64,000 nt of DNA, from assembly GCF_001715975.1 (NCBI RefSeq), contig NZ_MARB01000004.1, forward strand, positions 62,001 to 126,000. The letters are read 5' to 3'. The position numbers and the translations under genes were made by a program. Source of the stretch: Candidatus Thiodiazotropha endolucinida (GTDB taxonomy: Bacteria > Pseudomonadota > Gammaproteobacteria > Chromatiales > Chromatiaceae). Shown here one piece after another: positions 6,801 to 62,762 of this stretch. The first letter of the stretch is position 1. The number at the start of each line of letters is the position of its first letter. Under the pieces are notes generated by a model that ran no database searches, was not told the DNA's origin, and saw only the letters and a program-made list of their open reading frames with translations.

Positions 6801-6819
6801 GTCTATCCACTTACCGTAT

Positions 6820-8465: not shown

Positions 8466-8522
8466 ATTCGCCTCCAGGTAGTCTTTTCTCGTACATTAGG
8501 CGGGATTGAAACTACTAAACAA

Positions 8523-8553: not shown

Positions 8554-8575
8554 TATTGGGGCAAAAAAGTAACTT

Positions 8576-21986: not shown

Positions 21987-21998
21987 TGATGCCTCCTA

Positions 21999-23108: not shown

Positions 23109-23115
23109 ATCATCC

Positions 23116-23835: not shown

Positions 23836-23963
23836 TTTGAGGATGTATTTATAGCATAGTTGGTTATTCAAGCTAATAGCCCTGTGTACTAGTAATTCAT
23901 TTGTCGACTTACATGTATTGGATAAAGGCAGATGCTTCGATAATTCGCAAAATAAACCTGTAT

Positions 23964-25111: not shown

Positions 25112-25112
25112 T

Positions 25113-25256
25113 TCATTTACAATTAAGTCCTATTTTCTCCAAATATATGGCACTGAAGTTTATGCATTTATATTTTGTCATATATTTTCTGATCATAGTC
25201 CAATAGATATTTATCTCTTTGTATTCTATCGACTTGTTCGGTATTAATTTCTTCAC
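25113..25256 (-). CDS. Possible 47-aa peptide between wzy and the GT4 gene
   Basis: GTG at 25256-25254 overlaps the wzy stop (GTGA). The frame runs 47 codons to a TGA one base before the ATG of the frameshifted glycosyltransferase. The product is basic and aromatic (VKKLIPNKSIEYKEINIYW start, Cys-containing end) with no recognisable domain. The perfect fit between neighbouring starts and stops argues for translation. The short length, AT-rich composition and lack of a clear binding site argue against. Confidence 0.25.
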   Translation of the reverse strand: MKKLIPNKSIEYKEINIYWTMIRKYMTKYKCINFSAIYLEKIGLNCK

Positions 25257-26461: not shown

Positions 26462-26464
26462 TAC

Positions 26465-27310: not shown

Positions 27311-27312
27311 CG

Positions 27313-29954: not shown

Positions 29955-30087
29955 TTTTCCCTCTATTAGCTACAATATATACGCTATATGCATTATAATT
30001 ATTTTAGCTCAATGCCTCACTGCATTTGCAATTAACCGAAGATTACATTACGCTCACCTCTCAATTACTGAAAAGTACATGCCTCTT

Positions 30088-31077
30088 TCAATACAATATA
30101 TAACGTCTTGACATGCCTTGACGCTTATTTAATTGCCTTTTAATAATATCAAAAATCAATATCCGCCTAAAATAACCAAAACCAGCTCTCAATAGATCAG
30201 ACAATAAATTTTCGACACCTGGACGTATACTTATTAGTTCCTCGAGTATTGTTTTGTAATCATAACCAGTCCTAGACAGCCTATCTTCCCCAACCCATTT
30301 TATATATTTTTTTGCCCATTCCTTTCTATACTGATTACATATGCTATAACGCCATTTATTTATGGAGTTTTTTGAAATCACACTATCCTCACCTGGATTT
30401 ACCTTATCACCCATAGAACCATAAAGGGGAATATTTGATAAATCATCTAAATAAGGACTGATTTCAATGCTTAAGTATTTTTCCAGCTGAGTCACTATCT
30501 TTTCTTGATCATTTACCAGCTCTTCGTAATTAATAGAAAGAACTTTGTCTTTATTTTTATTGAACGATTCAAACATCAATTCATATCCTTTGTACAGATC
30601 AACATAATTTGAATAAAGGCGCCACTTACCTTCTGAAAAACTCTCTAACATCGAACTAAGTATGGAAACCGGATTCCTCCATAAATAAATATACTTAGCA
30701 TCTGGAAATGTTGAAAATAATTCTTCAATTACCAACACATTTCTTGGAGTTTTTTCTATGAAATATACACTACTGCTATCAGCAGATTTTCTATATAATT
30801 CCAAAACAAATGAGCTCAGACTATCCCTAAAATCGTTGATGCCATCAGGTAGGGTTTCAGTAAATTCATTTATTGCGATTTTAGCCAACCTTTGACCATA
30901 CTCAGAGTATAATTCTCTACTTGTATGCATTGAAAGTAACGGCAAAAGCAGCCAAGACTCAGATACAGTACTAACTCTTGGATTGGTTGCTATAATTCTC
31001 TGAAGTAAAGTCGAACCAGATCTAGGCAAAGAAATAATAAATACTGGATTGATATCACTCAACGCCTTGTACTCCAT
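30088..31077 (-). CDS. PAPS-dependent sulfotransferase (2)
   Basis: 329-aa protein of the Sulfotransfer_3 type. The 5'-phosphosulfate loop is ISLPRSGSTLLQR (15-27), VYFIEKTPRNVLVIEEL follows, and YIYLWRNPVSILSSML is the 3'-phosphate-binding strand/helix (R-N-P in place of R-D-P). The C-terminus is basic. It is divergent from the first sulfotransferase, so the two probably modify different positions or sugars. It is separated by about 130 nt from the pyruvyl transferase and by about 70 nt from the flippase. Confidence 0.8.
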   Translation of the reverse strand: MEYKALSDINPVFIISLPRSGSTLLQRIIATNPRVSTVSESWLLLPLLSMHTSRELYSEYGQRLAKIAINEFTETLPDGINDFRDSLSSFVLELYRKSADSSSVYFIEKTPRNVLVIEELFSTFPDAKYIYLWRNPVSILSSMLESFSEGKWRLYSNYVDLYKGYELMFESFNKNKDKVLSINYEELVNDQEKIVTQLEKYLSIEISPYLDDLSNIPLYGSMGDKVNPGEDSVISKNSINKWRYSICNQYRKEWAKKYIKWVGEDRLSRTGYDYKTILEELISIRPGVENLLSDLLRAGFGYFRRILIFDIIKRQLNKRQGMSRRYILY

Positions 31078-31150
31078 TCGTTAATTCATTAGACCAGCTG
31101 TATTACACATAACTAGTTGCTACTGTATCTTCTCTTATTCATAATAATTT

Positions 31151-32494
31151 TTAGATTGAATTCATTATTTTAGTTTTCATCTCATTTAGCATAATTAATA
31201 ATTCATTTTGCCCCGCATGTGTAATAATCTTGAGATGCACTAGGCAAATAATCCACATCAATAAATTATAACTGGCAAAAGTAACGGCAAAACCAATCGC
31301 CCCACCTAAATAACCCATCGATTCCGATAAAATATAAGTCGTAGTAATGCCAATGCCTGCTGCGCTTAAGCTACTAATCATAACTAACTTTTCATAGCCG
31401 GCCATTGTAAGAACAACACCTGGCGATCCAACTGCAACATTGATTAGCTGGCCTAGTATAATAATATTCAAACCATCTACAGCATAGGTGTATTTTTCAC
31501 CATATACTATTGAAAGTAAGACCTCACCAAATGCCAACAACAAAAAGCAGGCTGCAATACCGAAAACGACAATAACCATTCCCGTTCCACGCAAAAGAAC
31601 CTGAAGTCGATCTACTTTCCCTCTTGCATACAGATGGGCTGCTGCTGGTTGTATTAGTGTGTTAGTCAATCTTAAAGGGACCGTTATAAATTGTACTAAG
31701 TAAATTGCTGCACCTAAAAATGCCACCTCTAACGAAGATACTTTTGCGCCTACTATCCATAGATGAACCTCACGCATTACAAGAAATCCTGCAGTTGCAA
31801 AAACTAAGGGCGCAGACAACCTTAATAATTCAATGATTCTAAATTCATAGCTAGAATACAAATGCTTTATCTTTCTATATAGAACTGTTGCAGATGCTAT
31901 AGTAGCTAATAGTGCACAAACAATGACGACTATGACTATGTCATAAAGTCCATATTCATCTCCATAATAATAGAGTATAAATAAAGCAATAATTGCTACA
32001 AATGTTGTTACAAAACCACTGAAAAGTGATGCGAAGCCTAATTCATGCAAGCCTTTAAATATTGATGTAAAAATATTTCTGAATATCAGCACTACAGCCC
32101 AGACGCCAACTATGAGTATCATGTTTGAGTCCCAGCTAAAAGCACTAACATATTTCTCTATATTGAAGTACAAAAATAGAGAGCCAACCATAACAATGAA
32201 AGAAGAAAATACGCAAAATAGTAGGGATGAAAAAAGATAAGATTTTGCCATATATCTATTTTTTGTTGATAATGACGAGGATATTAATCGAACAATGGAA
32301 TTATCTGTCCCTACAACGGACAAAGTAGCGACAAGCATTGCAATACCCATCGCTATAAAATACTGGCCAACTTCCTCCGGACTTAGTATCCGTGCTAATA
32401 AACCATTAAATAACAAGGTTGATATGGCATTTAACAATGCAAGAACACCAATCCAAACGCCTCCACTTATCAAGCGATTACTTACGTTAATCAT
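31151..32494 (-). CDS. Wzx-type polysaccharide flippase (MATE/MOP superfamily)
   Basis: 447 aa with 12-14 hydrophobic helices and short loops. The N-terminus SGGVWIGVLALLNAISTLLFNGLLARILSPEEVG shows the pattern of the polysaccharide-export branch of the MOP superfamily, including LARxLSPEEVG. Predicted to flip undecaprenyl-linked repeat units to the periplasm for the Wzy-like polymerase. Located next to the GT2 gene in the AT-rich block. Confidence 0.85.
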   Translation of the reverse strand: MINVSNRLISGGVWIGVLALLNAISTLLFNGLLARILSPEEVGQYFIAMGIAMLVATLSVVGTDNSIVRLISSSLSTKNRYMAKSYLFSSLLFCVFSSFIVMVGSLFLYFNIEKYVSAFSWDSNMILIVGVWAVVLIFRNIFTSIFKGLHELGFASLFSGFVTTFVAIIALFILYYYGDEYGLYDIVIVVIVCALLATIASATVLYRKIKHLYSSYEFRIIELLRLSAPLVFATAGFLVMREVHLWIVGAKVSSLEVAFLGAAIYLVQFITVPLRLTNTLIQPAAAHLYARGKVDRLQVLLRGTGMVIVVFGIAACFLLLAFGEVLLSIVYGEKYTYAVDGLNIIILGQLINVAVGSPGVVLTMAGYEKLVMISSLSAAGIGITTTYILSESMGYLGGAIGFAVTFASYNLLMWIICLVHLKIITHAGQNELLIMLNEMKTKIMNSI

Positions 32495-32570
32495 GATATC
32501 GATAGCACAATGATTTTTCAGTTATCACAGCATTTAGTAAATGTTTACTATCATAAATAAACAGAGTACT

Positions 32571-33296
32571 TCAGCGTTTTATTACACCTATGATTCTTCT
32601 TTTAATCATTTCATAGTTATAGTAGTAAAACGCCTTCCATGGGGAGAAGCCATTTATCAAGCTTGCAGCAAATGACTCTGCATAGCTTTTTTCATATTGA
32701 CTTGTACTAATACCACCAACACTCATATTGACTATGATTTCTGGAATAAACCCAACATTGACATTATTCCATATCCTCAGCAGAAACTCATGATCTGCTG
32801 CCACCTTAAAACCAACAGAAAACCCACCATATTCCGAATACACTTCCCGTCTCACAAATGTACTCGGATGGGCAACACGCATTTTTTTCAGCAAATCCAG
32901 TTTACTTACATCTTTACCAATTATCTTTACATATTGGCGATCACTACTACTCAACTCGACATAACCGTGGCATACATCAAGATCATTAGCCGCCATCTCC
33001 CTAATAACCAGTGACACTCGATTGCAATCTCTATAAACATCATCAGAGTTCAAAATATGAACAACTTCACCTGACGATAGAGATACTCCCTTATTAAAAG
33101 CATCATATACTCCGGCATCTTTTTCCGATATATATTTCACACTATAACTTTTTATAATATTTAAGGTATTGTCTGTAGATCCTCCATCTATAATGATATG
33201 CTCAATATCCGCGTAGTCTTGCGATTGCACAGACTCAATACAGTTGGCGATTTTGTTTTCGCCATTATACACTGGAGTTACGATACTGACTTTCAT
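32571..33296 (-). CDS. Family 2 glycosyltransferase
   Basis: 241-aa GT-A enzyme. It begins MKVSIVTPVYNGENKI, the family 2 start, followed by IIDGGSTDNTL and the DxD-like LNSDDVYRD at the metal site. AHPSTFVRREVY and AADHEFLLRIW are common in WcaA/colanic-acid-type transferases. Predicted to act on the cytoplasmic face, adding one sugar to the lipid-linked repeat unit. Donor and linkage are unknown. Confidence 0.87.
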   Translation of the reverse strand: MKVSIVTPVYNGENKIANCIESVQSQDYADIEHIIIDGGSTDNTLNIIKSYSVKYISEKDAGVYDAFNKGVSLSSGEVVHILNSDDVYRDCNRVSLVIREMAANDLDVCHGYVELSSSDRQYVKIIGKDVSKLDLLKKMRVAHPSTFVRREVYSEYGGFSVGFKVAADHEFLLRIWNNVNVGFIPEIIVNMSVGGISTSQYEKSYAESFAASLINGFSPWKAFYYYNYEMIKRRIIGVIKR

Positions 33297-33648
33297 TTAC
33301 TATCTATATTTTTTAAGTGTAGTGTCTGAGTGATTACTATTTTATCTGAAGAATTGTGTTTGGTAATAATCTTACTCAGTAACAAAATAGCGAAAGCAAG
33401 GTTAAATCAGCCACTCTTTACTTCAACATTCATTGCTCATTCCATTTTGTGCAGCCACATCATAACTGGCAACTTTAGACTTATTATATTCAACTTTCTT
33501 AGAGCATAAACCTAATATTCATTGCCTCGGATATTCTTGTATTAAAAGTACACAACCACTCAGTGATGGCGGAACTTAGGTATAAATGCGACAATCATCA
33601 ACTTCCATGCGAACATGTGAGTTTTTGAAAAGGGTTTCCCACCACTAC
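33297..33648. other. AT-rich intergenic stretch
   Basis: 352 bases between the tyrosine kinase stop and the GT2 start, within an otherwise tightly packed minus-strand cluster. I find no open frame with a ribosome binding site and no convincing terminator. It may contain a promoter for the acquired block, but none can be assigned. Confidence 0.4.
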
Positions 33649-34467
33649 TTAATAGTAACTATATCCTGCATTGTTATCCTTTGACTTGTTCAACACGGTA
33701 CCTATTATTTCAATATTGCTTAGTAGTTCGTTAGCACGCTTAAGATCTACCTTACGCGTACCACCTTCAGCAACAATTATCATAGCCGTATCAACATATG
33801 GTAAAAACGCTATCACGTCGTCACAGGATAATAGAGGCGGCATATCGAATAGAACGATACGATTTGGATAGCGATGCTTTATTTCTTCCACTAATTTTAC
33901 CATCTTTGGAGAAGATAGCATCTCCGATGAATTAGAAAATGGCTTACTTCCTGGTAAAATAACCAATCTCTCCACTCCAGGATTGAACATAATTTCGCTC
34001 AGCTCCATGCCATCCGTCAAATAGTCGCTAATCCCAGGCTGCTCATCTTGGAAGAAGTATTGCTGAATGCTAGGACGCCTAAGATCTAAGTCCACTAGCA
34101 GCACTGTATGGTTAACTTCCCGCGCCAGGCTAATAGCCAAATTGATAGCGGTGATTGTTTTACCACATTCTTCGTTAGGACTGGTGATAGCTAACGAATT
34201 CCACTGATTTGCCTTCAATCTCTGAAGCACATGGGTACGTAATACTTTGTATTGATCTGAAATCAAATCATTTGTATCTCCTACAATAACCCGTTTTGCC
34301 CTTAATAAATCTTTTGAGATCTCAACTGATTTAGTCTTGGTATAGGTTATTTTCGTTGGAAACTCAGGTTCCGCAGTCTGCTGTGATGCAATATGGCTAT
34401 TGTCACTTCTCTTCATCGATGTACGCAAATCACGTGCACGCTCAAGCGCTTGCTTTATCTTTTCCAT
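33649..34467 (-). CDS. BY-kinase-like tyrosine-protein kinase (CpsD/CapB/EpsG family)
   Basis: 272-aa cytoplasmic kinase of the exosortase-associated autokinase type. The P-loop is TSPNEECGKTIT (95-106), less Gly-rich than the usual GxxxGxGKT. Walker A' is VLLVDLDLRRP and Walker B is IVLFDMPPLLSCDD. The short Tyr cluster at the extreme C-terminus (GYSYY) would be the autophosphorylation tail. It works with the Wzz-like membrane protein encoded directly upstream to control EPS chain length. Confidence 0.85.
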   Translation of the reverse strand: MEKIKQALERARDLRTSMKRSDNSHIASQQTAEPEFPTKITYTKTKSVEISKDLLRAKRVIVGDTNDLISDQYKVLRTHVLQRLKANQWNSLAITSPNEECGKTITAINLAISLAREVNHTVLLVDLDLRRPSIQQYFFQDEQPGISDYLTDGMELSEIMFNPGVERLVILPGSKPFSNSSEMLSSPKMVKLVEEIKHRYPNRIVLFDMPPLLSCDDVIAFLPYVDTAMIIVAEGGTRKVDLKRANELLSNIEIIGTVLNKSKDNNAGYSYY

Positions 34468-34554
34468 ACACTTCTCACTGTTGAACCTGCTGCACTCTTC
34501 TCATTTGGCAATACGCACTAGAATGGGATATCGATTTTACTGCCACCAAAGATG

Positions 34555-36165
34555 TCAATGCACACCCGGCTCTATACCAAGTTTACGTAATACGATATAT
34601 ATAATCACATCTAATGGTTTATAAAACATATGGACGGACACCAAAAATACACCAATCGTAGCAAATAGACTCGAAATGACTATCGCCCCATTCCTTTTTC
34701 GTTGTTGTTGATCATCGCTACATTCAATATAGGGAATCACAGCCAACGGTGGCGCTTTGGTAATAGCGGTGACACCTCTACTTCCATAAACGGTTTGATC
34801 CATACTTTCTCTCACAGCAACATTACCAAATCCGCCAGCAAAGCCGAAAACAAAACCCAGAAATAGAATTGCAATTCTATTCGGTTTATCCGGTTTTTCA
34901 GGTAACTGCGGTGGTTCAATGAGCAAGAACCTTTCATCTTTACGCTCACGTTCTAGTGATTCTGCCAGTTGAGCTTCAAGCTGTTTGGCTTTGACTTCTT
35001 GGTACTTGTCTAAAGCATTTTCATAATTTCGTGTCAAATTTCGGTATTCCCTTTCAACCTGCGGACTCTGCATCAGGCGGTCTTCGAAATTCTTTATTTT
35101 ACCTTTGATCTCGTCTCTCATACCTTTGAGTGAGGCCAATTCACTATTCGCTGCTTGGAGTTGTGTTTCTAGCTGTACGTAGGCTGGATTATCGGAATGG
35201 GTGATATTATTTTCACTTCTATGCCCACTATCGAGTTCTCTTTCTAACACCTCGATCTCACCCTTCATTTTGATTAAGGTTGGATGGTTGTCCGTATAAC
35301 GTGTTGCAAGCGCCAGATATTCTGTTTGTAGCGCCCTCAGACGGTCTTCCGTACCCATAACTCTATTACCGCTAGAGTTGTATATATCAGTTTTAGGACT
35401 TATCTGCGACAGTTCCGATTGGAGGTAAATCTTCCGCTCTTCCAGGTTTCGGATCTGCTGGATTGTTTCAATCAATTCCCGTTCATTGCGCTCCATGAGT
35501 TGGATATTGAGCTGCTGGAGTTCCGGTAAATTGTTGACGTTTTTCTCTTTAAACTCTGCAAGAGATGCCTCCAGTTCAGTAATTTCCTGGTTGAGCCGGC
35601 CAGCTTCTGCGCTTAGAAAGCTTGAGGTTTCTAAAGCAGACTGTGTACGCTGCCTGAGATTTTCACCGAGATAGAGCGAGACGAGTTCGTTGGTAACCTT
35701 TTGTGCAACCCGCGGTACCTTATTGCTGTATGCGAGTGTGAATGCGATGGTCGCTGTAGTCGGGCGACCGCTCCGCGGGTCAACCACATCGGCGCTGATC
35801 ATTTCCAGTTCTATATCTTCCTGCAAAGCCTCTGCCAACAACGTGATACTGGTGTCTTCCCTTGCGTCTGCATAGAGCCCGTAATCATCGATGATCTTAC
35901 CCAGATTCTCAGTGGTCATTACCCGCTGGCTGATCACCTGGATACGTTCTCCGGCATAAGATGTAACGGTTGAGCGAACCAGTTCGCTTGGTATTTCCTG
36001 TTGTTCGATCAAGATCGTGGCTTCGGCACGGTAGATAGAAGGCAGGCCGAGTGCCAAGCCTATGCTCAACAGCATAATGATTGCGGCCGGAACGATCAGC
36101 TGCATTTTTCGTCGTTTAAGAATGGCTATATAGTCGCCGATTCCCAGTAACTCTTCCTCTTCCAT
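34555..36165 (-). CDS. Wzz-type polysaccharide chain length determinant (exosortase-locus type)
   Basis: About 536-aa inner-membrane protein. The first helix (about residues 20-45) is followed by a periplasmic Wzz domain with RAEATILIEQQEIPSE. A long coiled coil follows (about 180-400, rich in Glu/Gln/Leu with LQTEYLALATRYTDNHPTL), then a PEPPxxP-like proline segment (EPPQLPEKPDKPN) before the second helix. This matches co-polymerases without a fused kinase domain. I prefer the ATG at 36165; an in-frame GTG lies 12 nt upstream. An extended -10 (TGATACAAT at 36207-36199) could start transcription of the minus-strand operon. Confidence 0.85.
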   Translation of the reverse strand: MEEEELLGIGDYIAILKRRKMQLIVPAAIIMLLSIGLALGLPSIYRAEATILIEQQEIPSELVRSTVTSYAGERIQVISQRVMTTENLGKIIDDYGLYADAREDTSITLLAEALQEDIELEMISADVVDPRSGRPTTATIAFTLAYSNKVPRVAQKVTNELVSLYLGENLRQRTQSALETSSFLSAEAGRLNQEITELEASLAEFKEKNVNNLPELQQLNIQLMERNERELIETIQQIRNLEERKIYLQSELSQISPKTDIYNSSGNRVMGTEDRLRALQTEYLALATRYTDNHPTLIKMKGEIEVLERELDSGHRSENNITHSDNPAYVQLETQLQAANSELASLKGMRDEIKGKIKNFEDRLMQSPQVEREYRNLTRNYENALDKYQEVKAKQLEAQLAESLERERKDERFLLIEPPQLPEKPDKPNRIAILFLGFVFGFAGGFGNVAVRESMDQTVYGSRGVTAITKAPPLAVIPYIECSDDQQQRKRNGAIVISSLFATIGVFLVSVHMFYKPLDVIIYIVLRKLGIEPGVH

Positions 36166-36406
36166 TGTCCCTGTCACTTCCGATTTACCGAAGCGGGAAT
36201 TGTATCATAACAATCAACCTTGAATAGATAACGCTAATATTCAACTGTATCTGTTTGCCAACAGCTCAAATATTATATTGAATATCAATTCCGTCATTTA
36301 AGCTCTGTGTCACGTATCCCGCATCCTCATGTACCTTTCAGGGCTGATGAGCATTCTCAGAGCTTGGAAAGCAAATGCCACCCTGGATCAGTCGCTTTTC
36401 AACCTC

Positions 36407-36801
36407 CTACAGCGAACGGCGCACGCTGAAGGCCGCAAAACCGATCAGGATTGTACCGATCAACCACGCAGGCGCAGGCAGTGGAACTGCACTGTTTTTT
36501 ACATCATATGCCGCTCCGGGAAAACCATTCATAGTTTCATCGAGAATGAGGGTGTAGATACCGGTATTCAGTGTACCAAGTGAAAAAACAAGGTTTTTAT
36601 ACTCAGCGAATGTGGTGCCAAAACCATCTTTAATGATGTAAATGCCAGATTATCGGGCATGGGAACAAATCCTGATCCGATTTCATTGTCAACAATTGTT
36701 ACACTGTTTAGTGTGTCACCGTGTAGTGAGAACGTTCCGCCAACTGTGTATCCAGGATCTGTATCGCTGATATGAATGTTGAATACTCCGACTTCGCAAA
36801 G
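36407..36801 (-). pseudogene. VPLPA-CTERM sorting-domain protein, frameshifted and 5'-truncated
   Basis: Remnant of an exported exosortase substrate. The 3' end reads AVPLPAPAWLIGTILIGFA and then a basic tail RRSL before TAG (36409-36407). This is a full VPLPA-type signal: motif, membrane helix, arginines. Upstream in the same frame are GIYIIKDGFGTTFAEY and LGTLNTGIYTLILDE. A second frame holds the preceding NIHISDTDPGYTVGGTFSL. Restoring one G near CTGGCATTT joins the two frames. No signal peptide is found and a stop precedes the N-terminal part. Confidence 0.7.
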
Positions 36802-37323
36802 TTAATTGATCATTGCTTAATAAAAAATGCACTCCAGTCCCGCGCTTATGGTATTGCGCAAAAATAATACATGGTTTTTATTATCTAAGAAAATATAGCA
36901 ATATCGATTCAGAGTGCTATTTATCGAGACCACCACTGCTTCACAGTTGACTATTATTGGGCACAATCCATTATCCTTGGGTGTTAATCATTACGATCTG
37001 TCAGATCTGATCGACTTTATTGCACGCATTCTGTGCAAAGGGTAAATATTTTATGCGGTAAAGTTTCCCTGTCCGGCGTGATTGCTCAGGCGACTTTTTG
37101 CGACAGATCACATTTTTTAACAATTTTCAATATGACTCTCATACCCTTTGCAGAATTATATATGTTCGAAACCTGACTGATATGCAATGATATGTATGAA
37201 CAATGCAGAGTTGATATCGTTATTTCATAACTTATATTCAACCTCTTTTCTTGCGGTCTTCTTTGGCCCATAATCCACCACTGCGAAATCGTATTGATCG
37301 CAGCAGCTCAGGAGGAGAGGGAT
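36802..37323. other. Divergent intergenic region between the two EPS transcription units
   Basis: 522 bases between the VPLPA remnant and the initiating transferase. It probably carries plus-strand promoter elements (listed separately). No conserved open frame is seen; a 61-codon minus-strand frame near 37.1-37.27 kb has no ribosome binding site. The degraded 5' part of the exosortase substrate may once have extended here. Confidence 0.45.
37211..37238 (+). promoter_or_regulatory. Candidate promoter of the EPS transferase-cysC unit
   Basis: TTGATA (37211-37216), 16-nt spacer, TATATT (37233-37238). The predicted start lies about 80 nt before the transferase start codon. It is the best sigma-70-like match in the region but unverified. 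Confidence 0.35.
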
Positions 37324-38739
37324 TTGCTCGAGGTCAAACAAACTGATCGGTCACTGCTACAGCGCCGCAATAACCTGACCACTTCGCTTCAGGCCTTCCT
37401 CGACGGCCTGGCTGTCGTGATTTTAATTCTCACCCTGCCCCTCTTATTCCATGGCAAGTTGACCTCTCACTACATCATACTAACCCTGGCACTGCTGGGT
37501 AGCATGTCGGTGATTTATGACCGGATGAACATCTACCGTCATCATGGCACGATGACAAAAAAGGCCTTCAAGCTTTTGAAGGCATGGAGTAGCGCCTTTG
37601 CCTTCCTGCTCTTGTTGGCGTTTGTCACTAAATATACCGAAACCTACTCCAGGGCCGTAGTGCTGCTGCTCTTTGTATTAGGTTACCTCGCCCAGGTCAG
37701 CCTCCATTTCGGGTTCAGGTTGATACAACGGCACATGGTCTCGCAGGAGGCCAATACCAAAGCGTTGATCATTGGCAGCGGCGCACTTGCAAACCATTTG
37801 TACGACCGCATCAACAACAATCCGTGGATGCCTGAAGAGGTCGTCGGTGCGGTGTCCGCCACGGACTGCGACGATACAGCCGATCATTCAAGCAAGTCAG
37901 CCATGCCTGTTGTCGGCAGGTTGGAAGATATCAAGCGGATGATCAGAGTTTACGATATCCAGACCATCTATATCGCCGTATCGCTGGATAGTTCACCGAT
38001 GATCCAGCAGATCTATTTCGAGCTGTTGAATGAGAATGTCAACATTCACTGGGCGCCGAATATCTTTGCATTGAATCTGATCAACCATAGCGTAAAGGAG
38101 TTGGCAGGCATACCGATTCTAACCTTGTCGGAAACCCCATTGATCGGCTCGCACCTTCTAATTAAGGCGATCGAGGATCTGGTACTGGCGTTGTTGATCC
38201 TGATCCTAGCCAGCCCGATCATGTTGATCACCGCGATCCTGATAAAAGTTGAATCCCCCGGACCGATCTTTTTCAGGCAGGAACGCACCGGCTGGGATGG
38301 AAAGCAATTCAGGATCTGGAAATTCCGCAGCATGAGGTTGCATACCGAGAAGGATGGGATAGTGAAACAAGCCACCCGGGATGACCCCCGCATCACCCGC
38401 ATTGGCCGCTTCATACGCCGCACCAGTATCGATGAACTGCCTCAACTGTTTAACGTCTTGGCGGGTCAGATGTCGCTTGTCGGTCCCAGACCTCATGCAC
38501 TCCAGCACAATCTGGCATATTCAAAACGGATCGAGGCCTATCTGGCACGACACCGTATCAAGCCGGGGATTACCGGGTTGGCTCAGATTCGGGGTTTTCG
38601 AGGAGAGACCAAGGAACTTAAGCAGATGGAGAAACGGGTCAAATATGACCTGGAGTACATCAACAATTGGTCTTTGTGGCTTGATCTGTCTATTTTACTG
38701 AGGACTCCATTCAATCTCAAAAATGACAATGCCTACTGA
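37324..38739 (+). CDS. Undecaprenyl-phosphate glucose (hexose-1-P) phosphotransferase initiating EPS synthesis
   Basis: 471-aa polyprenyl glycosylphosphotransferase. Four or five N-terminal membrane helices are followed by a CoA-binding-like Rossmann segment (ALIIGSGALANHL). The C-terminal catalytic domain has FFRQERTGWDGKQFRIWKFR, SIDELPQLFNVL and KPGITGLAQIRGFRGE. It transfers sugar-1-phosphate to undecaprenyl phosphate, starting the repeat unit. I choose the TTG at 37324: AGGAGG ends 8 nt before it, whereas an upstream in-frame TTG has none. Transcribed opposite to the rest of the cluster, with cysC. Confidence 0.9.
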   Translation: MLEVKQTDRSLLQRRNNLTTSLQAFLDGLAVVILILTLPLLFHGKLTSHYIILTLALLGSMSVIYDRMNIYRHHGTMTKKAFKLLKAWSSAFAFLLLLAFVTKYTETYSRAVVLLLFVLGYLAQVSLHFGFRLIQRHMVSQEANTKALIIGSGALANHLYDRINNNPWMPEEVVGAVSATDCDDTADHSSKSAMPVVGRLEDIKRMIRVYDIQTIYIAVSLDSSPMIQQIYFELLNENVNIHWAPNIFALNLINHSVKELAGIPILTLSETPLIGSHLLIKAIEDLVLALLILILASPIMLITAILIKVESPGPIFFRQERTGWDGKQFRIWKFRSMRLHTEKDGIVKQATRDDPRITRIGRFIRRTSIDELPQLFNVLAGQMSLVGPRPHALQHNLAYSKRIEAYLARHRIKPGITGLAQIRGFRGETKELKQMEKRVKYDLEYINNWSLWLDLSILLRTPFNLKNDNAY

Positions 38740-52241: not shown

Positions 52242-55199
52242 TCAATTCGAGACTGATTCCACACTGTAACCAGCTTCAACGACCGCATCGACCAGGGCCG
52301 TCTGATCCGCGGTGCCGGTAACCAAGGCCTGACCGTCTTCCAGACTGACTTCCGCATTCACTACACCAGGTTGGGCCTGCAGGGCTTTGGTGACGTTCAT
52401 AACACAGTGGGGACAGGTCATGCCGTTAACTTTCAGCGTGATACTCAAGGGTGCCTCCTTCGAGGATTGAAAAAAACGTAATCTGTTGGCATTGGTGACA
52501 ACGGTTACCGACGAAAGTGCCATCGCCGCACTGGCGAACATGGGTGGTAACAACCAACCCGTGAGTGGATAGAGCACACCCGCTGCCATCGGAATGCCTA
52601 TCACATTATAGATAAATGCGCCAAAAAGGTTCTGTTTAATATTCTTTAATGTTGATCTGGATAATGCAATTGCAGTCGAAACATTGAGCAATGAGTCGCC
52701 GACCAGGGTGATATCGGCATTTTCTATGGCCACATCGGTACCACTGCCTATGGCAAAGCCGGTATCCGCCTGCGCCAACGCGGGGGCGTCATTGACACCG
52801 TCGCCCACCATTCCAACCCGACAGCCCCGTTGCTGTAATTCCTTCACTACTTCGAGCTTCTCTGATGGCAGGAGTTCACTGTGGACCTCGTCTATCCTTA
52901 ATGCCCTGGCCACCGCTTCCGCGGTCGCGCGATTGTCTCCGCTGCAGATAACCACCTCAACCCCTTGCTTCCTGAGGGATTCCACTGCCGCCAGACTGTC
53001 ATGACGCAACGGATCCTTGAGTATCAGCAGCCCCATGAAGATCCCATCGCGCATCACCCATACAGGTGTACCCGCTTGATCGGCCTCCCGCTCGGCATGG
53101 CCCAGCAGATCCGAAGGGGGAGTAAGACGATTTACGCTCAGGAGCTGATTCCCGCCCAACTCCACCGACAACCCGGCTATGGACCCTTTCACACCCCGAC
53201 CTGGATGGGAGTCAAAGGACTCTACGGGGAGCAGTTCAATCCCGATCTGGTGTGCATAATCGACAATCGCCTCCGCCAGTGGGTGTGATGCATATGATTC
53301 AACACTGGCCGCGAGAGTGACGAGTTCATTCCTCTCCACACCCGGGACTGGATAGAGCGAGGTCACCGTCGGAGCACCCCGGGTAAGCGTGCCGGTCTTA
53401 TCGACGACCAGGTGGGTCAACGCACTTGCCCGCTGCAGCCCTTCGCTGTTGCGGATCAGGATATTCAACTGAGCGGCTCGACTGGTCCCCACCATAATGG
53501 CAATGGGTGTCGCCAATCCCAGGGCACAGGGACAGGCGATAACCAATACCGCGATACTGGCGGTAAGGGCATAGGGCAGAGCCGGCACCGGAGCCAGAAT
53601 CAGCCAAACGAAGAATGTGATCACGGCGATCATGACAACCACAGGCACAAAGATCGCGGAGACCTTGTCCACAAGACGGGCAATGGGGGGTTTGCTCATC
53701 TGGGCCTTGCGCACCATCGCGATGATATGGGCAAGCGTTGTCTCCTCTCCGAGCCGGGTCACCCGATAACGCAGATTACCGTTGCGGTTTATCGTGCCCC
53801 CGGTGACGATATCCCCCGGTTGTTTGCTGACCGGCAGCGATTCTCCGGTCAGCATCGACTCATCCACCGTCGACGTCCCCTCGATCACCTCACCATCGAT
53901 GGGGATACGCTCTCCAGGACGCACCTGAATCCGGTCGCCCACCCGCAGCAGTGAAACCGGGACGGCCACCTCCTTCCCTTGGTGGATGACCTGTGCAATC
54001 TTCGGCGCCAGTCCCACAAGGGCGCCAACCGCTTCACTGGTGGTTCGTTTGGCCCGCGTCTCCAGCACATGGCCAAACTGGAGGAACGCGAGAATCAATA
54101 CGGATGCGTCGAAATAGAGCTTATCCGTTCGCAGCAGCCCTTCCGGCTGAATCACAAGAAGCAGTGAGGCAAACCAGGCCGTTCCGGTCCCCAATGCCAC
54201 CAGCGTATCCATATTGGCAGAGAGATGTCTGGCCTGTTTCCAGGCACCCAGATAGTAGTGGCCACCGCTGAATCGCATGATGATCAGACACAGGATCGCG
54301 ATACCCAGCCAGAAACTCTCACCCCCGGACTCACTCAGCCGCGGAGTATGACCAGTCATTTCAGCCGCCATCAGGCTGATGCCCGCAACACCGGCAAGCA
54401 GCGCCCGCTGCCAGGCACGCCTGACTTCAGCCGCCGCCACAGCGGCCTCCTCCTCATAGGGGTCGATGAACGGTTCCATCAGGCTTGCTGATATGCCCGC
54501 CTCACCCAACCGGATCATCAGTTGTGCGGGATGTAGCCTGGTCTGAATGCGCCAAACACCCTTCTCTCTATGCAGGCCGGCATTCGGGTCAAGTGCCTCA
54601 AACAGTTGCGATAAGCGGGCTTGCTGTTCATCTTCGGCAAGACCGGTGATCGCTAACAGCAACTCATCTGGTGTCTGGTGAGTAACGTCAAGGCGGGCAT
54701 TGTAACCCTGATCGATCACCGTGTTGACCACCCTCTCCGGATCACCGCCGATCACCTGGGCACGTTTTTCCACCAGGTTGACCTGCGCCTCCGAAACGCC
54801 ATCCACCGAAAGGATGGCCCGCTCCACCGCGGCGACACAGCTGGCGCAGGTCATATCATCGATGGTCAGGGTGTAGCCATCAGTCAGCGTCGGCGCCGCC
54901 GGGTCGCTGTGATTCTGAAGATCTGTGGCTGGCAGCGGACAATGTGTTGCGGTGTCGGCAAGCGATTGTGCATCATACCCGGCCTCCTTGATCGCAGCCA
55001 TTGCCAGATCGGGACTTCCCCCGAGGATCCTGGCGCTGTTGGATGCCAGGCTGACTTCCACCTGCACCACATCCGGCAGGCTGGCAACCGCCTTCTCCAC
55101 CGCAGCCACGCAGTGCTGACAGGACATGCCTGTAATCGACAGTTGATAGGGAACCGCTAGCGGCGTCATTTCCGTTTTAGCTGGCTGATCTGAAGGCAT
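52242..55199 (-). CDS. copA: Copper-translocating P1B-type ATPase with N- and C-terminal metal-binding domains
   Basis: 985-aa inner-membrane ATPase exporting Cu(I). Two N-terminal HMA domains carry GMSCQHC (Cys27/30) and DMTCASC (Cys118/121). A third, degenerate HMA-like fold without CxxC covers about 175-240. Then come eight membrane helices with the CPC motif ([13 protein letters not shown]), the phosphorylation site DKTGTL and [10 protein letters not shown]. Uncommonly, a complete extra HMA (GMTCPHC) forms the C-terminus, about 914-985. No CueR-type regulator is adjacent. Two nearby downstream Met codons could also serve as start. Confidence 0.93.
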
Positions 55200-58656: not shown

Positions 58657-59418
58657 ATGACACGGATAGCTGATCCAATTTCGCTGCCTCTGATCAAATC
58701 GTCCCCTGCACTGGAATCTGGGGAGTGTGGGTCTATAGTCTGTCATTTTCTCGAGCCAGCCTTCCGTATAGCCTATCGGGGGGTTCTGCATATCGATGCC
58801 CGCGGCTGGGAATCCCAAGCCAAGACCTTCTATGCACATGCGGTTGCCAGAACACCGAAGGCACTCTGGTTACATGTACAACGAATCAATTTACTGGCAG
58901 GCATGGCGGATCCCGATATTCATGGCGCGCTCGTCGATCTTTTTCTGGTACTCGATGGAAAAGGCGCTGCCTTGTGTAAACGTATGCTTGCGTTGGCCTA
59001 TCCCCTGTTGCAGCGCGAGGCCTTTCGGCAATTGTTGGACCATCTGCTGGCAAATGGATCGCATGATAACCTCAGTTCAAACGGCTCTGTACTCAGTTCA
59101 GGCCGTGTCAGCCATGAGCAGCTCATCCGGTTCGAGGAGTCGGCAGACGATGCCCAGACTGACCCTCTGCAAATCGCATCCGAACAGCTTGCGTTCGGAC
59201 AAACCGATTTAGCGCGAGAGACCTTGGAAAGTGCAGTTCTGGCCGCGCCGGAACGATTGGAGCTGCATCATGCCTTACTCGAAATCTACCGCCACTCCCG
59301 AATAAAAACTCAGATCGTACACTTTCTACAGCGTCTTGAAACCGTATCGAATCCACCACAAAAAGCATGGCAGGAACTATTGCATGAAATCGACAAAGAC
59401 CATGACAAACCTGGCTGA
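58657..59418 (+). CDS. FimV/TPR-like protein opening the GTPase operon
   Basis: 253-aa soluble protein. AAGGA lies 6 nt before the ATG. Residues 35-140 are helical with a hydrophobic VLHIDARGWESQAKTFYAHAV segment. The region 165-245 has a TPR-like pair (DPLQIASEQLAFGQTDLARE, AVLAAPERLELHHALLEIYR) that resembles the C-terminal, protein-binding part of FimV. There is no signal peptide, LysM or membrane segment, so it would act in the cytoplasm, perhaps as a scaffold. It overlaps the next gene by 35 nt, suggesting tight coupling. Confidence 0.7.
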   Translation: MTRIADPISLPLIKSSPALESGECGSIVCHFLEPAFRIAYRGVLHIDARGWESQAKTFYAHAVARTPKALWLHVQRINLLAGMADPDIHGALVDLFLVLDGKGAALCKRMLALAYPLLQREAFRQLLDHLLANGSHDNLSSNGSVLSSGRVSHEQLIRFEESADDAQTDPLQIASEQLAFGQTDLARETLESAVLAAPERLELHHALLEIYRHSRIKTQIVHFLQRLETVSNPPQKAWQELLHEIDKDHDKPG

Positions 59419-60577
59419 GCCGTCACTCGGTCCGACACGACTGGCCGCAATCGGGATGGACCAGCGTCAACGCAACGCTCTGCATATGATCTTTTCGAGC
59501 CGATGCAACAAACGCTATGTACTGACGGAAGAGGCCTCCTCGGAGATCTGTATCCTCGATCTGGACTCCTTTGGCGGTGATCAAAAGTGGAAAGAGTTCC
59601 GTGAGCGCCACCCGGACTCGCCATTGATCCTGGTATCGATCAACAGCCTCGAAATTTCAGACCGACATACTTTGTTCGTACAAAAGCCGATTCCTGTCGA
59701 ACGCCTGATTGCAGCGATTGAAACCCATCGCCGCAACCTGGTCACAGTAGATACGGATAGTGAGCCGGCAATCGAAGATATTCACTGCAACGATATAAAA
59801 CCCATCCCAGGTGAGGTTCGGGTACGGAGAAAAGCTGTCTCGACTCGCCGGGCTGCCTTACTCATGAGCGAATCCCAGGAACAGGTGTTTGTCGGTACCT
59901 CACCCGATATCGATCCGGAAGACCCAGATCATGTAGACAAAATTTTCTATAAGCCAGAGCACTATCTGCAGGGTTTGGCTCAACAGGCGTTGAACCAGGC
60001 CGTGCGCTATAACCAAAATATCAACATACAGGGTCCTTGGCCGGAGATCACCCTGGACATTGTCAGCAATAAGATCTGGGTATCGGCTTCCGACAGACAA
60101 CTTCGCCCATATAGCACAATGCCCGATACCACGCTGGAGGTACAACTAAATCCAGTCAAGACCGATTGGACACCTCCAGTCGATGCGACTGAGCATTCAT
60201 TCCAGTCTTTCATCTGGCAACTTGCCCTATGGGCATCCAGAGGCCGGATACCCGCTGGTACAAATATCCACCAACCCATCTACTTGCGACGCTGGCCCAA
60301 TTTCACCCGGCTGATCATCACACCCTATGCCATGCCCATCGCGGCCCTTTGGGCAGAACAACCAAGATCACTGCTCGATACGGCCAGTGCACTGAATATC
60401 CCGCAACGTTATGTATTCGCCTTTTACAGCGCCGCCAACGCCGTCCAACTGGCAGGTGAAACACGACGTGCTGTGGATACCCTGATCGCACCCCCTGCAA
60501 TCCGCAGGTCAAAACTCAGGGGGCTGTTTGGAAGCCTGCTGGACCGCCTCAGGGGAGGAAAAAAGGACCATGAATGA
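59384..60577 (+). CDS. Pseudo-receiver protein of the GTPase operon
   Basis: 397 aa from the ATG at 59384, which has AGGA 8 nt upstream. An alternative ATG is at 59402. Residues about 18-115 have a response-regulator-like order: LAAIGM strand, ICILDLDSFG at the phosphoacceptor strand, PLILVSIN, then VQKPIPVERLIAAI with the conserved Lys-Pro. The acidic pocket and the Asp environment are degenerate, so phosphorylation is doubtful. The C-terminal 280 residues (VDKIFYKPEHYLQGLAQQAL, then Trp-rich strands and LYLRRWPNFTRLII-like core) match no domain I know. It overlaps the GTPase gene by 8 nt. Confidence 0.65.
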   Translation: MKSTKTMTNLAEPSLGPTRLAAIGMDQRQRNALHMIFSSRCNKRYVLTEEASSEICILDLDSFGGDQKWKEFRERHPDSPLILVSINSLEISDRHTLFVQKPIPVERLIAAIETHRRNLVTVDTDSEPAIEDIHCNDIKPIPGEVRVRRKAVSTRRAALLMSESQEQVFVGTSPDIDPEDPDHVDKIFYKPEHYLQGLAQQALNQAVRYNQNINIQGPWPEITLDIVSNKIWVSASDRQLRPYSTMPDTTLEVQLNPVKTDWTPPVDATEHSFQSFIWQLALWASRGRIPAGTNIHQPIYLRRWPNFTRLIITPYAMPIAALWAEQPRSLLDTASALNIPQRYVFAFYSAANAVQLAGETRRAVDTLIAPPAIRRSKLRGLFGSLLDRLRGGKKDHE

Positions 60578-61106
60578 CCATAAAATCATCTTCAGCGGCC
60601 CGGTCGGCGTCGGAAAAACCACGGCCATCGGATCGATCAGCGATATCGAACCCGTCATAACCGACGAGAAGGCCAGCGATATGACGAAAACCCAGAAACC
60701 GGGCACCACCGTCGCCATGGACTACGGCATGATATCTCTCGACAACCGGGAGCGCATCCATCTGTATGGTACCCCCGGGCAAGAGCGCTTTAATTTTATG
60801 TGGGAGATCCTGACCCAGGGCGGTATCGGTTTGATACTCCTGATCAGTAATAACAGACCCGACCCATTCAGCGACATGCATTTTTTTCTGGATGCCTTCA
60901 AACAGTTCATTGGTTCAACCAAAGTGGTTATCGGGGTGACACAGATGGATCTCAGAAACAAACCGCGACTGGAGGATTATTACCTGCAGCTTGAAGACAG
61001 CGGTTTGAAGGTTCCAATATTCGAAGTGGATGCGCGAGTAAAGAGAGACATCTCCCTGTTGGTGGAGGCGTTGCTCTATTCAATCGACCCCGGATTGGAA
61101 GGTTGA
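60570..61106 (+). CDS. Small Ras-like GTPase (MglA/conservon CvnD type)
   Basis: 178-aa cytosolic GTPase. G1 is GPVGVGKTT (10-18), G2 is Thr46/Thr47 in KPGTTVAMDYG, and G3 is LYGTPGQERFNFMWEIL (65-81), in which the usual invariant Asp of DxxG is Gly67. G4 is the variant TQMD (124-127). The GTPGQ-F-MW pattern is what Streptomyces conservon GTPases and related MglA-like proteins show. The ATG at 60570 overlaps the preceding stop. A Roadblock/LC7 protein in the same operon is the expected GAP/GEF-like partner. Confidence 0.87.
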   Translation: MNDHKIIFSGPVGVGKTTAIGSISDIEPVITDEKASDMTKTQKPGTTVAMDYGMISLDNRERIHLYGTPGQERFNFMWEILTQGGIGLILLISNNRPDPFSDMHFFLDAFKQFIGSTKVVIGVTQMDLRNKPRLEDYYLQLEDSGLKVPIFEVDARVKRDISLLVEALLYSIDPGLEG

Positions 61107-61107
61107 T

Positions 61108-61758
61108 ATGTCCACATACAGACTCATCGATAATCGCTTCGCGTTACCCACGCCAGCCGGTGCCTTTCATGCAGCATCCCAACAAAACAGCGATCCTATA
61201 CACGCTCTACTTTGTGCACTACTGCAACATGAAGCTACTCCGGTGCTGACACAACAGGCGTTGGAGCAATGGACGGGACTGGCAGGTGCAGATGCACAAG
61301 AGGCGCTGTTTCGTGCACAAAGTCTTGGCTGGGTAGAAGGCTACAAGGAACCTCACTCTGCCCAACCCGGCACATTGGAGGAGTTACTCCCGAACCTTCT
61401 GCCACCATTATCCGATTGCGGCAAGGCACTGCTGGCAGATAGCCACGGCTTTCATGTATCTGCTTCGGGATTTACTCATGAAGCGGCAATCGAATTATCG
61501 GCTTTGAGTGCCGATATCGCCTCTCTCGACAGCCGACACAAGGCATTGACTCATAATAACCTGCGCCTTCCTACCAGCGCATGGGCATTAGTCGATGCCG
61601 CAGGAAACAGCCAGTTGGGATTTTGGCCTCTGTATATCGATGAGCAGCGATTTGTACTGGCATTGCAGGGCATACCCCACTTCAACAAACCCGAATTCAC
61701 ATCCCTGGTATGGGCGCTAAACACGCGTTATTCCAGCAATAAAGGGGAATCACAATGA
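61108..61758 (+). CDS. HTH-like plus roadblock-like protein of the GTPase operon
   Basis: 216 aa, starting 1 nt after the GTPase stop. Residues 25-90 are predicted helical with a winged-helix look (PIHALLCALLQHEATPV, then DAQEALFRAQSLGWVEGY). Residues 105-210 follow the roadblock order: ADSHGFHVSASGFTHEAAIE, ALSADIASL, ALVDAAGNSQLGFWPLYI, RFVLALQG and a last helix. This is my structural reading; no classical signature is present. A helical/wHTH partner between roadblock and GTPase genes recalls the CvnC (DUF742) position in conservons. Confidence 0.55.
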   Translation: MSTYRLIDNRFALPTPAGAFHAASQQNSDPIHALLCALLQHEATPVLTQQALEQWTGLAGADAQEALFRAQSLGWVEGYKEPHSAQPGTLEELLPNLLPPLSDCGKALLADSHGFHVSASGFTHEAAIELSALSADIASLDSRHKALTHNNLRLPTSAWALVDAAGNSQLGFWPLYIDEQRFVLALQGIPHFNKPEFTSLVWALNTRYSSNKGESQ

Positions 61759-61877
61759 ATCCGGTGCTTGAGGACGACGCCAAGCAACGGAATCCATCAT
61801 GTCAAAGAAACAAATACATGTCGTTAGGATTTTTAGGCCGCCAACGGATCAGCCTGTACGCAGCTGTACCCGGATAG
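61755..61877 (+). CDS. Possible 40-aa peptide in the GTPase operon
   Basis: The ATG overlaps the stop of the preceding gene (ATGA) and the frame ends with TAG at 61875-61877. The product (MNPVLEDDAKQRNPSCQRNK, then a basic hydrophobic tail) matches nothing I know. Start-stop overlap is the only support; it may be a chance frame in the 164-nt gap before the roadblock gene. Confidence 0.2.
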   Translation: MNPVLEDDAKQRNPSCQRNKYMSLGFLGRQRISLYAAVPG

Positions 61878-61922
61878 CAGGCAGCTATTTAACTTGCCAT
61901 ACCATTTCAAGGAGATATGCTC

Positions 61923-62285
61923 ATGCGCGCAGATATGCTCAACTCAATACTCAGTGAACTTAATGGAACCTCTGCGGATATCGAGGCCTCGGCGGTCATC
62001 TCTACTGACGGCCTGATTATGGCCTCTCAGTTACCACAGTCCCTGGATGAAGACCGTGTAGGCGCCATGAGCGCGGCCATGCTTTCGCTTGGTGATCGCA
62101 CAGCTCAGGAGTTGGCGCGTGGTGAATTGGAGCAGGTCTTGGTTAAGGGTGGCGATGGCTATGTTTTGATGGCCCATGCGGGCCCCGAGGCCGTGGTTAC
62201 GGTGCTGGCAAAAACCAATGCAAAATTGGGCTTGATCTTTCTCGATGTCAAACGTGCTGCCGAGAGCATTGAAAAATTAATCTGA
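61923..62285 (+). CDS. Roadblock/LC7 domain protein (MglB/CvnB type)
   Basis: 120-aa single-domain roadblock protein. The signature order is complete: helix MLNSILSELNGTSADIEAS, strand AVISTDGLIMASQLP, helix DRVGAMSAAMLSLGDRTAQEL, strands QVLVKGGDGYVLMAHAG and AVVTVLAKTNAKLGLI, final helix DVKRAAESIEKLI. I choose the ATG at 61923, which has GGAG 8 nt upstream; an ATG 6 nt earlier is too close to the binding site. Such proteins dimerise and control small GTPases as GAPs or GEFs. Confidence 0.9.
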   Translation: MRADMLNSILSELNGTSADIEASAVISTDGLIMASQLPQSLDEDRVGAMSAAMLSLGDRTAQELARGELEQVLVKGGDGYVLMAHAGPEAVVTVLAKTNAKLGLIFLDVKRAAESIEKLI

Positions 62286-62402
62286 CCTGCGGGCAATGTA
62301 CAGGATTCCACCATAATTGCTGGAAAGTGTAGCCCCTCAAAAAAGTTAACACGGACGGGGAAACGACTATCCATCGTTAGATATCAACAGGGAATAGCGA
62401 TC

Positions 62403-62762
62403 ATGAGTGAAAGCGCTTTCTTTCTTAGACGCATGAACGATCATATCCAGTATTTGGGTAAATTAAAGGCGACCTTGGAAGACAAGGGAGACTTCCAGGG
62501 GAGTGATCATCATTCATGCAAACTCGGACAATGGCTCGATAGTGACGGCCCGGCACAATCTTCAGCTATCAGCGGAGAAGCCCGTCGTATTTTCGACTCC
62601 ATCCTTGAACCACATGAACAATTTCACCAAGCAAGCCAACACGCCCTGGACTGCAAGAAGATCGGTGACAAGAGCGGTATGGAGGAGGCAATGACAGAGA
62701 TGTTCAAGCTATCCGCCAGACTTGTGGACATATTGATGAAACTCGACACAATGAGCCACTGA
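62403..62762 (+). CDS. Stand-alone chemoreceptor zinc-binding (CZB) domain protein
   Basis: 119-aa four-helix protein consisting only of a CZB domain. The family zinc ligands are present: His14 in the first helix, HHSCKLGQWL with His36/Cys39 and the following G-x-W, and PHEQFHQAS with His71 and His75. In chemoreceptors and diguanylate cyclases such as DgcZ this domain senses zinc or oxidants; here it is free. It follows the roadblock gene by 117 nt on the same strand, so it may be part of the GTPase module's input. Confidence 0.87.
   Translation: MSESAFFLRRMNDHIQYLGKLKATLEDKGDFQGSDHHSCKLGQWLDSDGPAQSSAISGEARRIFDSILEPHEQFHQASQHALDCKKIGDKSGMEEAMTEMFKLSARLVDILMKLDTMSH

Follow-up and report, generated by a model that had tools for sequence, protein, structure and literature searches.

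A stand-alone zinc-binding protein beside the Roadblock gene of a probable Group 3 MglA-type GTPase module in Candidatus Thiodiazotropha endolucinida, and the candidate sensor genes that replace or accompany it in related loci

The six-gene locus

We analyzed a stretch of 64,000 nucleotides (nt), referred to here as the window, which is part of contig C4 of the 4.49 Mb genome of Candidatus Thiodiazotropha endolucinida. Reading of its open reading frames (ORFs) gave six genes, all on the plus strand, spanning positions 58657-62762 (Table 1). They encode a protein of unassigned family, an atypical receiver protein, a small GTPase, two Roadblock proteins and a free chemoreceptor zinc-binding (CZB) protein, and are called TPR, REC, GTP, RBX, ROB and CZB below. 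The core of this locus is very probably a Group 3 MglA system. In related loci ROB is repeatedly adjoined, before or after, by a single-domain sensor gene, and the window appears to carry the CZB version of an exchangeable sensor slot.

Table 1. Genes, domains and intergenic gap of the locus (positions in the window; aa, amino acids; HTH, helix-turn-helix)
Feature	Positions	Strand	Description
Gene 1 (TPR)	58657..59418	+	253 aa, family unassigned, weakly TPR-like; starts the core
Gene 2 (REC)	59384..60577	+	397 aa; atypical receiver and C-terminal conserved domain
Gene 2, receiver fold	59429..59758	+	residues 16-125; D59, D61 and K101-P102 kept, putative acidic pair lost
Gene 3 (GTP)	60570..61106	+	178 aa, Group 3 MglA-type small GTPase (very probable); GPVGVGKT, GTPGQ, TQMD, DAR
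Gene 4 (RBX)	61108..61758	+	216 aa; N-terminal helical HTH-like domain and predicted Roadblock-fold domain
Gene 4, Roadblock-fold domain	61369..61737	+	residues 88-210 (predicted)
RBX-ROB intergenic gap	61759..61916	+	site of a free protoglobin gene in five Candidatus Thiodiazotropha loci
Gene 5 (ROB)	61917..62285	+	122 aa, single-domain Roadblock/LC7 (MglB-like), Asp-Gly pair
Gene 6 (CZB)	62403..62762	+	119 aa, stand-alone chemoreceptor zinc-binding protein

The six consecutive plus-strand genes had been recognized in a first-pass annotation made from the sequence, and all six ORFs are present. That annotation also described several of them as overlapping, which holds for genes 1-3 (35 nt between genes 1 and 2, 8 nt between genes 2 and 3) but not for the rest, where genes 3 and 4, 4 and 5, and 5 and 6 are spaced by 1, 158 and 117 nt, respectively. 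Homologues of gene 5 begin at 61923, two codons downstream of the ORF start. Promoter and terminator scans of the locus gave no more sites than shuffled sequence (2 vs. 4.6 and 3 vs. 3.8, respectively).

A probable Group 3 MglA core

In a Pfam search gene 3 matched PF03029 at 1.6e-12 and Ras at 1.6e-5. Together with the intact P-loop and GTPGQ motifs, this bears out its annotation as an MglA/CvnD-type GTPase. In an alignment of homologues (n=32), K16/T17 and the Arg of the DAR motif were found in 32/32 sequences and the Gln of GTPGQ in 30/32. The G4 motif of gene 3 reads TQMD, and the G4 lysine is present in just 3/32 homologues. No arginine finger stands beside the G2 Thr; gene 3 has Thr46-Thr47 there, and Thr46 is found in 30/32. 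The length of the protein lies within the 150-240 aa range of Group 3, with GTPGQ in G3. According to PMC4316618 (excerpts of this and of the other papers are cited throughout), Group 3 is characterized by GTPGQ, a G4 without lysine, DAR in G5, the absence of an arginine finger, and an MglB with an Asp-Gly pair. Such MglA proteins are described as nearly exclusively beta/gamma-proteobacterial, with one or two MglB genes (PMC4316618), and they are usually encoded next to MglB homologues (one or two) and a receiver-like protein with a winged helix-turn-helix, wHTH (PMC4316618; Wuichet and Sogaard-Andersen, 2014). Judged by motifs and partners, the core of the module can be assigned to Group 3 with little doubt. 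Because the GTPase motifs, the Roadblock partners and the receiver-like half of the neighbor match that description, the core (receiver-like protein, GTPase and Roadblock proteins) is not new; it is already described and widespread, and the first-pass statement that the combination is undescribed fails for this part. A parallel with conservons and MglA/MglB had been drawn at that stage; the core is nearer to Group 3 than to the Group 2 conservons.

ROB is a Roadblock/LC7 protein, as had been proposed (PF03259 at 1.2e-15, over the Pfam cut-off), and its Asp31-Gly32 pair is conserved in 28/28 homologues. The best PDB match of the ROB profile was a Thorarchaeota Roadblock protein (7f8m, 8.5e-30), and CvnB5 was matched at 1.8e-13. 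Gene 4 had been described as HTH plus roadblock-like. Its predicted Roadblock half superposes on MglB; by eye, the N-terminal portion consists of helices and looks HTH-like. Searched against PDB by sequence, the RBX profile matched CvnB5 alone, at 0.068, so that it is the predicted fold which supports the Roadblock call for this protein.

For genes 2 and 4 the Pfam search gave no credible family. Structure prediction revealed a receiver fold in gene 2, in line with the degenerate receiver proposed for it. Among REC homologues (n=48), Asp59 is kept in 47/48, Asp61 in 48/48 and Lys101-Pro102 in 48/48. Column 24 is Gly in 33/48 and Asp in 9/48, column 25 is acidic in 0/48, and column 26 is Asp/Glu in 31/48; gene 2 itself has Gly-Met at columns 24-25, with a lone Asp26 left. 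From the predicted strands we take columns 24-25 to be the acidic pair, and Asp59 is the putative phospho-acceptor because it stands at the end of the third strand in the model. Of the hallmarks of a canonical receiver, REC thus has the fold, the putative acceptor Asp and the Lys, and lacks the acidic pair after the first strand. The C-terminal part of gene 2 would be wHTH-like according to the description of the Group 3 partner in PMC4316618; our fold comparisons mainly spanned the Roadblock and receiver domains and barely covered REC residues 126-397 and RBX residues 1-87. No kinase family was matched among the six proteins in the Pfam search (surrounding ORFs were looked over by eye only), which agrees with the earlier remark that the six genes include no histidine kinase.

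Conservation of the module

A scan with gene 2 only gave 62 named loci, some of which reach contig borders, so that counts from them are lower bounds. REC and GTP are paired in 54/62, and the full order TPR-REC-GTP-RBX-ROB is found in 31/62, including loci of Thiothrix, Cocleimonas, Leucothrix, Thiodiazotropha and others. In Zoogloea, REC is present in 16 loci, with GTP beside it in 10 and TPR or RBX in some. The REC profile matched 50/274 class-wide genomes at E <= 0.001; some of these matches are weak, the weak ones spanning the receiver half only. From the REC-profile matches 40 class loci were fetched, roughly by rank (loci fetched later were partly selected for protoglobin or CZB); they contain REC-GTP in 29/40 and the full five-gene order in 16/40. 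The arrangement is not due to chance, because the gene 2 profile alone recovers the full order in 16/40 loci. Conservation of the gene order therefore extends far beyond close relatives, one of the points on which the first-pass annotation had staked its proposal. Among representatives with <60% REC identity, the full order occurs in 29/69 when an inserted protoglobin is allowed. L001, L002 and L066, which repeat the window or L065, were dropped from the representatives and from the tree described below.

The closest named relatives are Candidatus Thiodiazotropha and symbionts of Ctena orbiculata, a lucinid clam (REC is 96% identical in L003); the bacterium is thus probably a sulfur oxidizer of the lucinid-symbiont kind. 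The genome of the window itself contains a second module copy, L065 (G000:C13:106000-124000, 4432-9437), in the order TPR-REC-GTP-RBX-ROB-PAS-PhnD-like and without CZB. In L011, L014 and L019 the dnaX and sdh neighbors are the same by eye, but the locus has shrunk to REC-GTP-CZB and lacks TPR, RBX and ROB. In a GTPase tree (n=73; frames outside 151-199 aa were left out), modules with CZB belong to two separate clades and those with protoglobin are spread over several; many forks are weakly supported. This pattern fits repeated gain and loss of sensors. A further arrangement was seen in L110, L111 and L112, where REC-ROB-protoglobin-TPR-RBX lie on one strand with no GTPase within the fetched stretch.

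Sensor genes beside ROB

A survey of recurrent neighbors showed single-domain sensor genes next to ROB in many loci. A protoglobin of ~190 aa is encoded in L006, L007, L009, L010, L012, L045, L070, L073, L074, L085, L086 and L030, either in the RBX-ROB gap or downstream of ROB (in L030 ROB is outside the contig stretch). The Candidatus Thiodiazotropha loci with this gene in the RBX-ROB gap are L006, L007, L009, L010 and L012. In the corresponding gap of the window, tblastn with 18 protoglobins found no globin remnant. The protoglobin tested matched globin-coupled sensors in a PDB search, and the proximal His was present in 18/18 aligned sequences. The free protoglobins have a tail past the globin fold, in which Gly172 and Leu177 are invariant (18/18, alignment A9); judging from the alignment, this C-terminal tail is a candidate docking segment.

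We also checked the sensor link in reverse, in whole genomes and not limited to REC loci. For protoglobins over the Pfam cut-off and with a frame of <=240 aa, a ROB match lay within 1.5 kb at 10/18 places, and at 0/92 for larger frames (p 9e-10, if genomes are independent). A local profile detected ROB beside three more small-frame protoglobins, in two of these cases on the opposite strand. Genomes with a small-frame protoglobin were REC-positive in 12/15 cases, vs. 50/274 overall.

A second sensor type is a PAS protein of ~160 aa, found directly after ROB in 14/62 named and 9/40 class loci. The next gene after it encodes a PhnD-like binding protein (PF12974) in 13 of the 14 named and in 9 of 9 class loci; three PhnD-like sequences inspected by eye had no evident signal peptide at the start. 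The best PDB match of the tested PAS protein was the Aer PAS (8dik, 1.4e-35). Members of this PAS subfamily scoring >=269 bits (next score, 177 bits) adjoin a ROB match at 11/11 places, as read by eye. In characterized proteins, protoglobins and Aer-type PAS domains sense O2 and redox state.

Gene 6 represents the third type. It matched PF13682 at 1.4e-12 (48.3 bits vs. a Pfam cut-off of 29.4), and it has a candidate site of 3 His and 1 Cys, which supports its annotation as a zinc-binding CZB protein. The residues H14, C39, H71 and H75, which we take to be the zinc ligands from the DgcZ pattern, are invariant in 14/14 aligned sequences. The CZB profile had no match in PDB at E <= 0.01. CZB genes occur in 12/62 named and 1/40 class loci, so that CZB is one of several stand-alone sensors and not the fixed sixth component that it had been taken for. 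In the genomes, five strong places of the subfamily (at least 112.8 bits, next 42) were found in four genomes, all four REC-positive, and ROB lies beside 3/5, one of these ROB matches being weak (28.5 bits; Robl_LC7 4.3e-6). CZB domains bind zinc via conserved His and Cys and respond to hypochlorous acid (HOCl) or zinc (PMC8262984), and a 2026 preprint describes them as sensing redox state and O2 via available zinc (PMC13370339). CZB-only proteins make up 27.1% of CZB sequences, with no partner or role assigned in the excerpts of PMC8262984. Two further CZB arrangements were observed. At G000:C3:188841-189600 a 185 aa Aer-type PAS frame lies ~150 bp from a CZB domain, which is part of a 495 aa frame of the same strand; the two may represent an Aer-like receptor that has been split. 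L107 contains a 490 aa gene, kinase-like at its start by eye and with no Pfam match, after which come CZB and a divergent Roadblock gene.

Sensors are also combined, protoglobin with CZB in L006, L007, L009 and L012, and protoglobin with PAS in L045 and L086. In loci scored as lacking the three main sensors, other genes were found beside ROB, encoding a FIST protein (L072:4213-5436), a bacterial-type globin (L097:3422-4060) and a sub-threshold STAS match (L103). A further small protein is encoded beside ROB in L104, L105, L121-L123 and L126; three of these were scanned and gave no Pfam match. The FIST protein and the bacterial-type globin are candidates for further stand-alone sensors. CZB, protoglobin and Aer-type PAS plausibly all read oxygen or redox state. 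We found no description of a sensor-Roadblock link among the papers listed in searches of the open-license literature (supplements were outside the scope), and the exchangeable slot beside ROB appears to be undescribed.

Gene 1, FimV and the polarity link

Gene 1 had been annotated as FimV/TPR-like. The proposal is weak, since the Pfam search gave one sub-threshold match, TPR_14 (E 0.0045), and identity with FimV was ruled out, no FimV model being matched at E <= 1. Its paralogue in L065 matched FimV_Cterm alone, at 0.049. A gene 1 homologue stands immediately before REC in 37/62 named and 20/40 class loci. A local profile found a FimV-type gene within the locus in 12/62 named and 2/40 class loci. 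The one in L056 matched FimV_core (6e-14) and FimV_Cterm (6.5e-10), both over their cut-offs; in the one of L049, FimV_Cterm was over its cut-off and FimV_core under. The FimV link of the module thus comes from other species (Thiothrix-type bacteria) and not from gene 1. PilM was found in 46/50 REC-positive vs. 156/224 other genomes, with the PilM/REC status of each genome assigned by reading the best E-values. This co-occurrence is weak evidence only. In Snodgrassella the mgl operon belongs to Group 3, and mutation of an orphan mglB alters colony morphology and gut competition, for which pilus motility was proposed as the cause (PMC11112851). FimV-type genes in the loci and the enrichment of PilM favor polarity or pili as the output of the module, and the HTH-like parts favor transcription; we assign a polarity or pilus output only tentatively, and it may well prove otherwise.

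Proposed redox input through Roadblock proteins and alternative explanations

MglB-type Roadblock proteins regulate MglA GTPases. The recurrent placing of sensors beside ROB points to redox state as the input of a GTPase switch. We propose, with a probability of about 0.55, that free redox or gas sensors feed the Group 3 GTPase module in trans via the Roadblock proteins. The state of the sensor, here zinc occupancy or cysteine oxidation of CZB, would alter ROB, alone or with RBX. ROB and RBX, serving as GTPase-activating protein (GAP), guanine nucleotide exchange factor (GEF) or scaffold, would then determine whether the GTPase is in its GTP or its GDP form, and REC would be a partner or effector. 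The output would most likely be cell polarity or type IV pilus/surface behavior; gene expression is the next candidate. Functional coupling of sensor and Roadblock protein, taken by itself, is fairly likely. Direct coupling is supported because a globin-Roadblock fusion, HGbRL, exists (PMC4476040). It is conceivable, at a little short of even odds, that these proteins represent a wider signaling class, in which single-domain O2/redox sensors are exchangeable and combinable in-trans inputs on a Roadblock protein that sets an MglA-type polarity GTPase. Such a class would comprise protoglobin, Aer-type PAS and CZB, perhaps also FIST or the bacterial-type globin, domains that elsewhere are fused to chemoreceptors or cyclases; its hosts would be sulfur-oxidizing, filamentous and symbiotic Gammaproteobacteria.

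Several observations weigh against input from free sensors through ROB. For 27/69 representatives ROB is present and neither CZB, protoglobin nor PAS was scored nearby (one of the 27, L021, carries a PAS fragment), and the 69 include L110, L111 and L114, which were fetched for their protoglobin. CZB is absent from 50/62 named loci, and at 2/5 strong CZB places ROB is missing from the vicinity (one of these places is on a 3.45 kb contig). L011, L014 and L019 keep CZB in a locus that lacks ROB, as would be expected if CZB were coupled to REC or the GTPase and not to ROB. CZB may have its own promoter, because a gap of 117 nt follows ROB. The small protoglobins L113 and L119 have no ROB nearby, and the loci of G186, G052:C46 and G060 were left unfetched. 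The <=240 aa limit for protoglobins and the bit limit for CZB were both chosen after the lists were seen, and the PAS profile was built from ROB-adjacent members only, so that its 11/11 is partly circular. On the output side, both genome reduction and kinship of the genomes confound the PilM enrichment, and a strong PilM match is lacking in four of the REC-positive genomes.

An unlikely, though serious, alternative is that the module controls transcription. The GTPase and Roadblock proteins would then gate how the wHTH-like parts of REC and RBX bind DNA, and the sensors would tune expression instead of polarity or pili. A wHTH is predicted and a role in transcription proposed for the Group 3 partner protein (PMC4316618), the N-terminus of RBX is a helical, HTH-like domain, and pilus genes are not prominent among the recurrent locus neighbors (clusters read by eye); yet these wHTH-like parts are the ones barely covered by the fold comparison, and the FimV-type genes that share the locus in 12/62 named loci point to the cell pole. 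It is improbable that the main input is phosphorylation of REC by an unlinked histidine kinase, with the free sensors merely adjusting it. The near-invariant Asp59, Asp61 and Lys101-Pro102 of REC would suit such a phosphorelay, as would the protein with a HATPase_c domain encoded beside ROB in L016, whereas the putative Mg2+-binding acidic pair is mostly lost (column 26 is nevertheless Asp/Glu in 31/48) and the six genes gave no kinase match. The least probable of the alternatives is that CZB, PAS and globin genes are passengers, frequent and mobile sensory genes that act elsewhere, e.g., on chemoreceptors or cyclases. The gaps of 117 nt upstream of CZB and 158 nt upstream of ROB, the presence of CZB in just 12/62 named loci and the small Aer-type PAS frames that lie away from ROB would be expected of passengers. 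Such genes would hardly give the contrast between small-frame and large-frame protoglobins (10/18 vs. 0/92 with ROB beside them), nor a ROB link shared by three unrelated sensor families; moreover, CZB is present in two clades that lie apart in the GTPase tree (deep forks weak) and was retained when other module genes were lost.

The Group 3 literature, as excerpted, does not state which environmental signals feed these systems. If sensor input through Roadblock proteins is correct, a Ras-like switch would answer to oxygen or redox state through swappable sensors, the gaps concerning Group 3 input and the role of CZB-only proteins would narrow, and several sensor types feeding one switch could be compared in bacteria living at oxygen/sulfide boundaries.

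Comparison with known systems

The module resembles the Group 3 MglA systems of Neisseria, Xanthomonas, Stenotrophomonas and Snodgrassella in its GTPase motifs, MglB-like partners, receiver-like neighbor with a putative wHTH and beta/gamma distribution. It differs from Group 3 as described in the excerpts of PMC4316618 in that the window adds gene 1, the HTH-Roadblock protein and a free CZB; relatives of the module also add protoglobin, Aer-type PAS and PhnD-like proteins, which those excerpts do not mention for Group 3. With the Streptomyces conservons (CvnA-B-C-D, Group 2) it shares the unusual G4, DAR in G5 and a Roadblock partner, but the histidine kinase CvnA is not among the six genes, and a receiver protein and soluble sensors are found instead. 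The MglA/MglB/RomR system of Myxococcus xanthus (Group 1) likewise has a GTPase, a Roadblock GAP and a receiver protein. In contrast to M. xanthus, G3 reads GTPGQ and not TVPGQ, and the locus has redox sensors but lacks chemosensory genes of the Frz type. In HGbRL, the globin-Roadblock fusion of Methylacidiphilum infernorum, a heme globin is coupled to a Roadblock domain in a proposed ligand-binding relay (PMC4476040), whereas the genes here are separate neighbors, the globin belongs to another family and several sensor types are involved. CZB-only proteins as described in PMC8262984 are alike in that they consist of one CZB domain, in which Cys and His residues are conserved; unlike those, to which the excerpts assign no partner, the subfamily found here is tied to a GTPase module.

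Other features of the window

A phage origin of the locus was rejected after a PHROGs scan of genes 1, 2, 4 and 6 without a match at E <= 0.01, and a defense origin likewise, none of the six proteins being matched by PADLOC. Elsewhere in the window, GC content falls to 0.34 in the region 19260-38739. By eye, this region contains genes for an exosortase, sugar-nucleotide enzymes, a glycosyltransferase, sulfotransferase-like proteins, a flippase, chain-length/tyrosine-kinase-like proteins and a sugar transferase, and it is probably an exopolysaccharide cluster of the PEP-CTERM type. Positions 52242-55199 encode a 985 aa heavy-metal P-type ATPase with three HMA-like CxxC segments, one of them near the C-terminus, also as read by eye.

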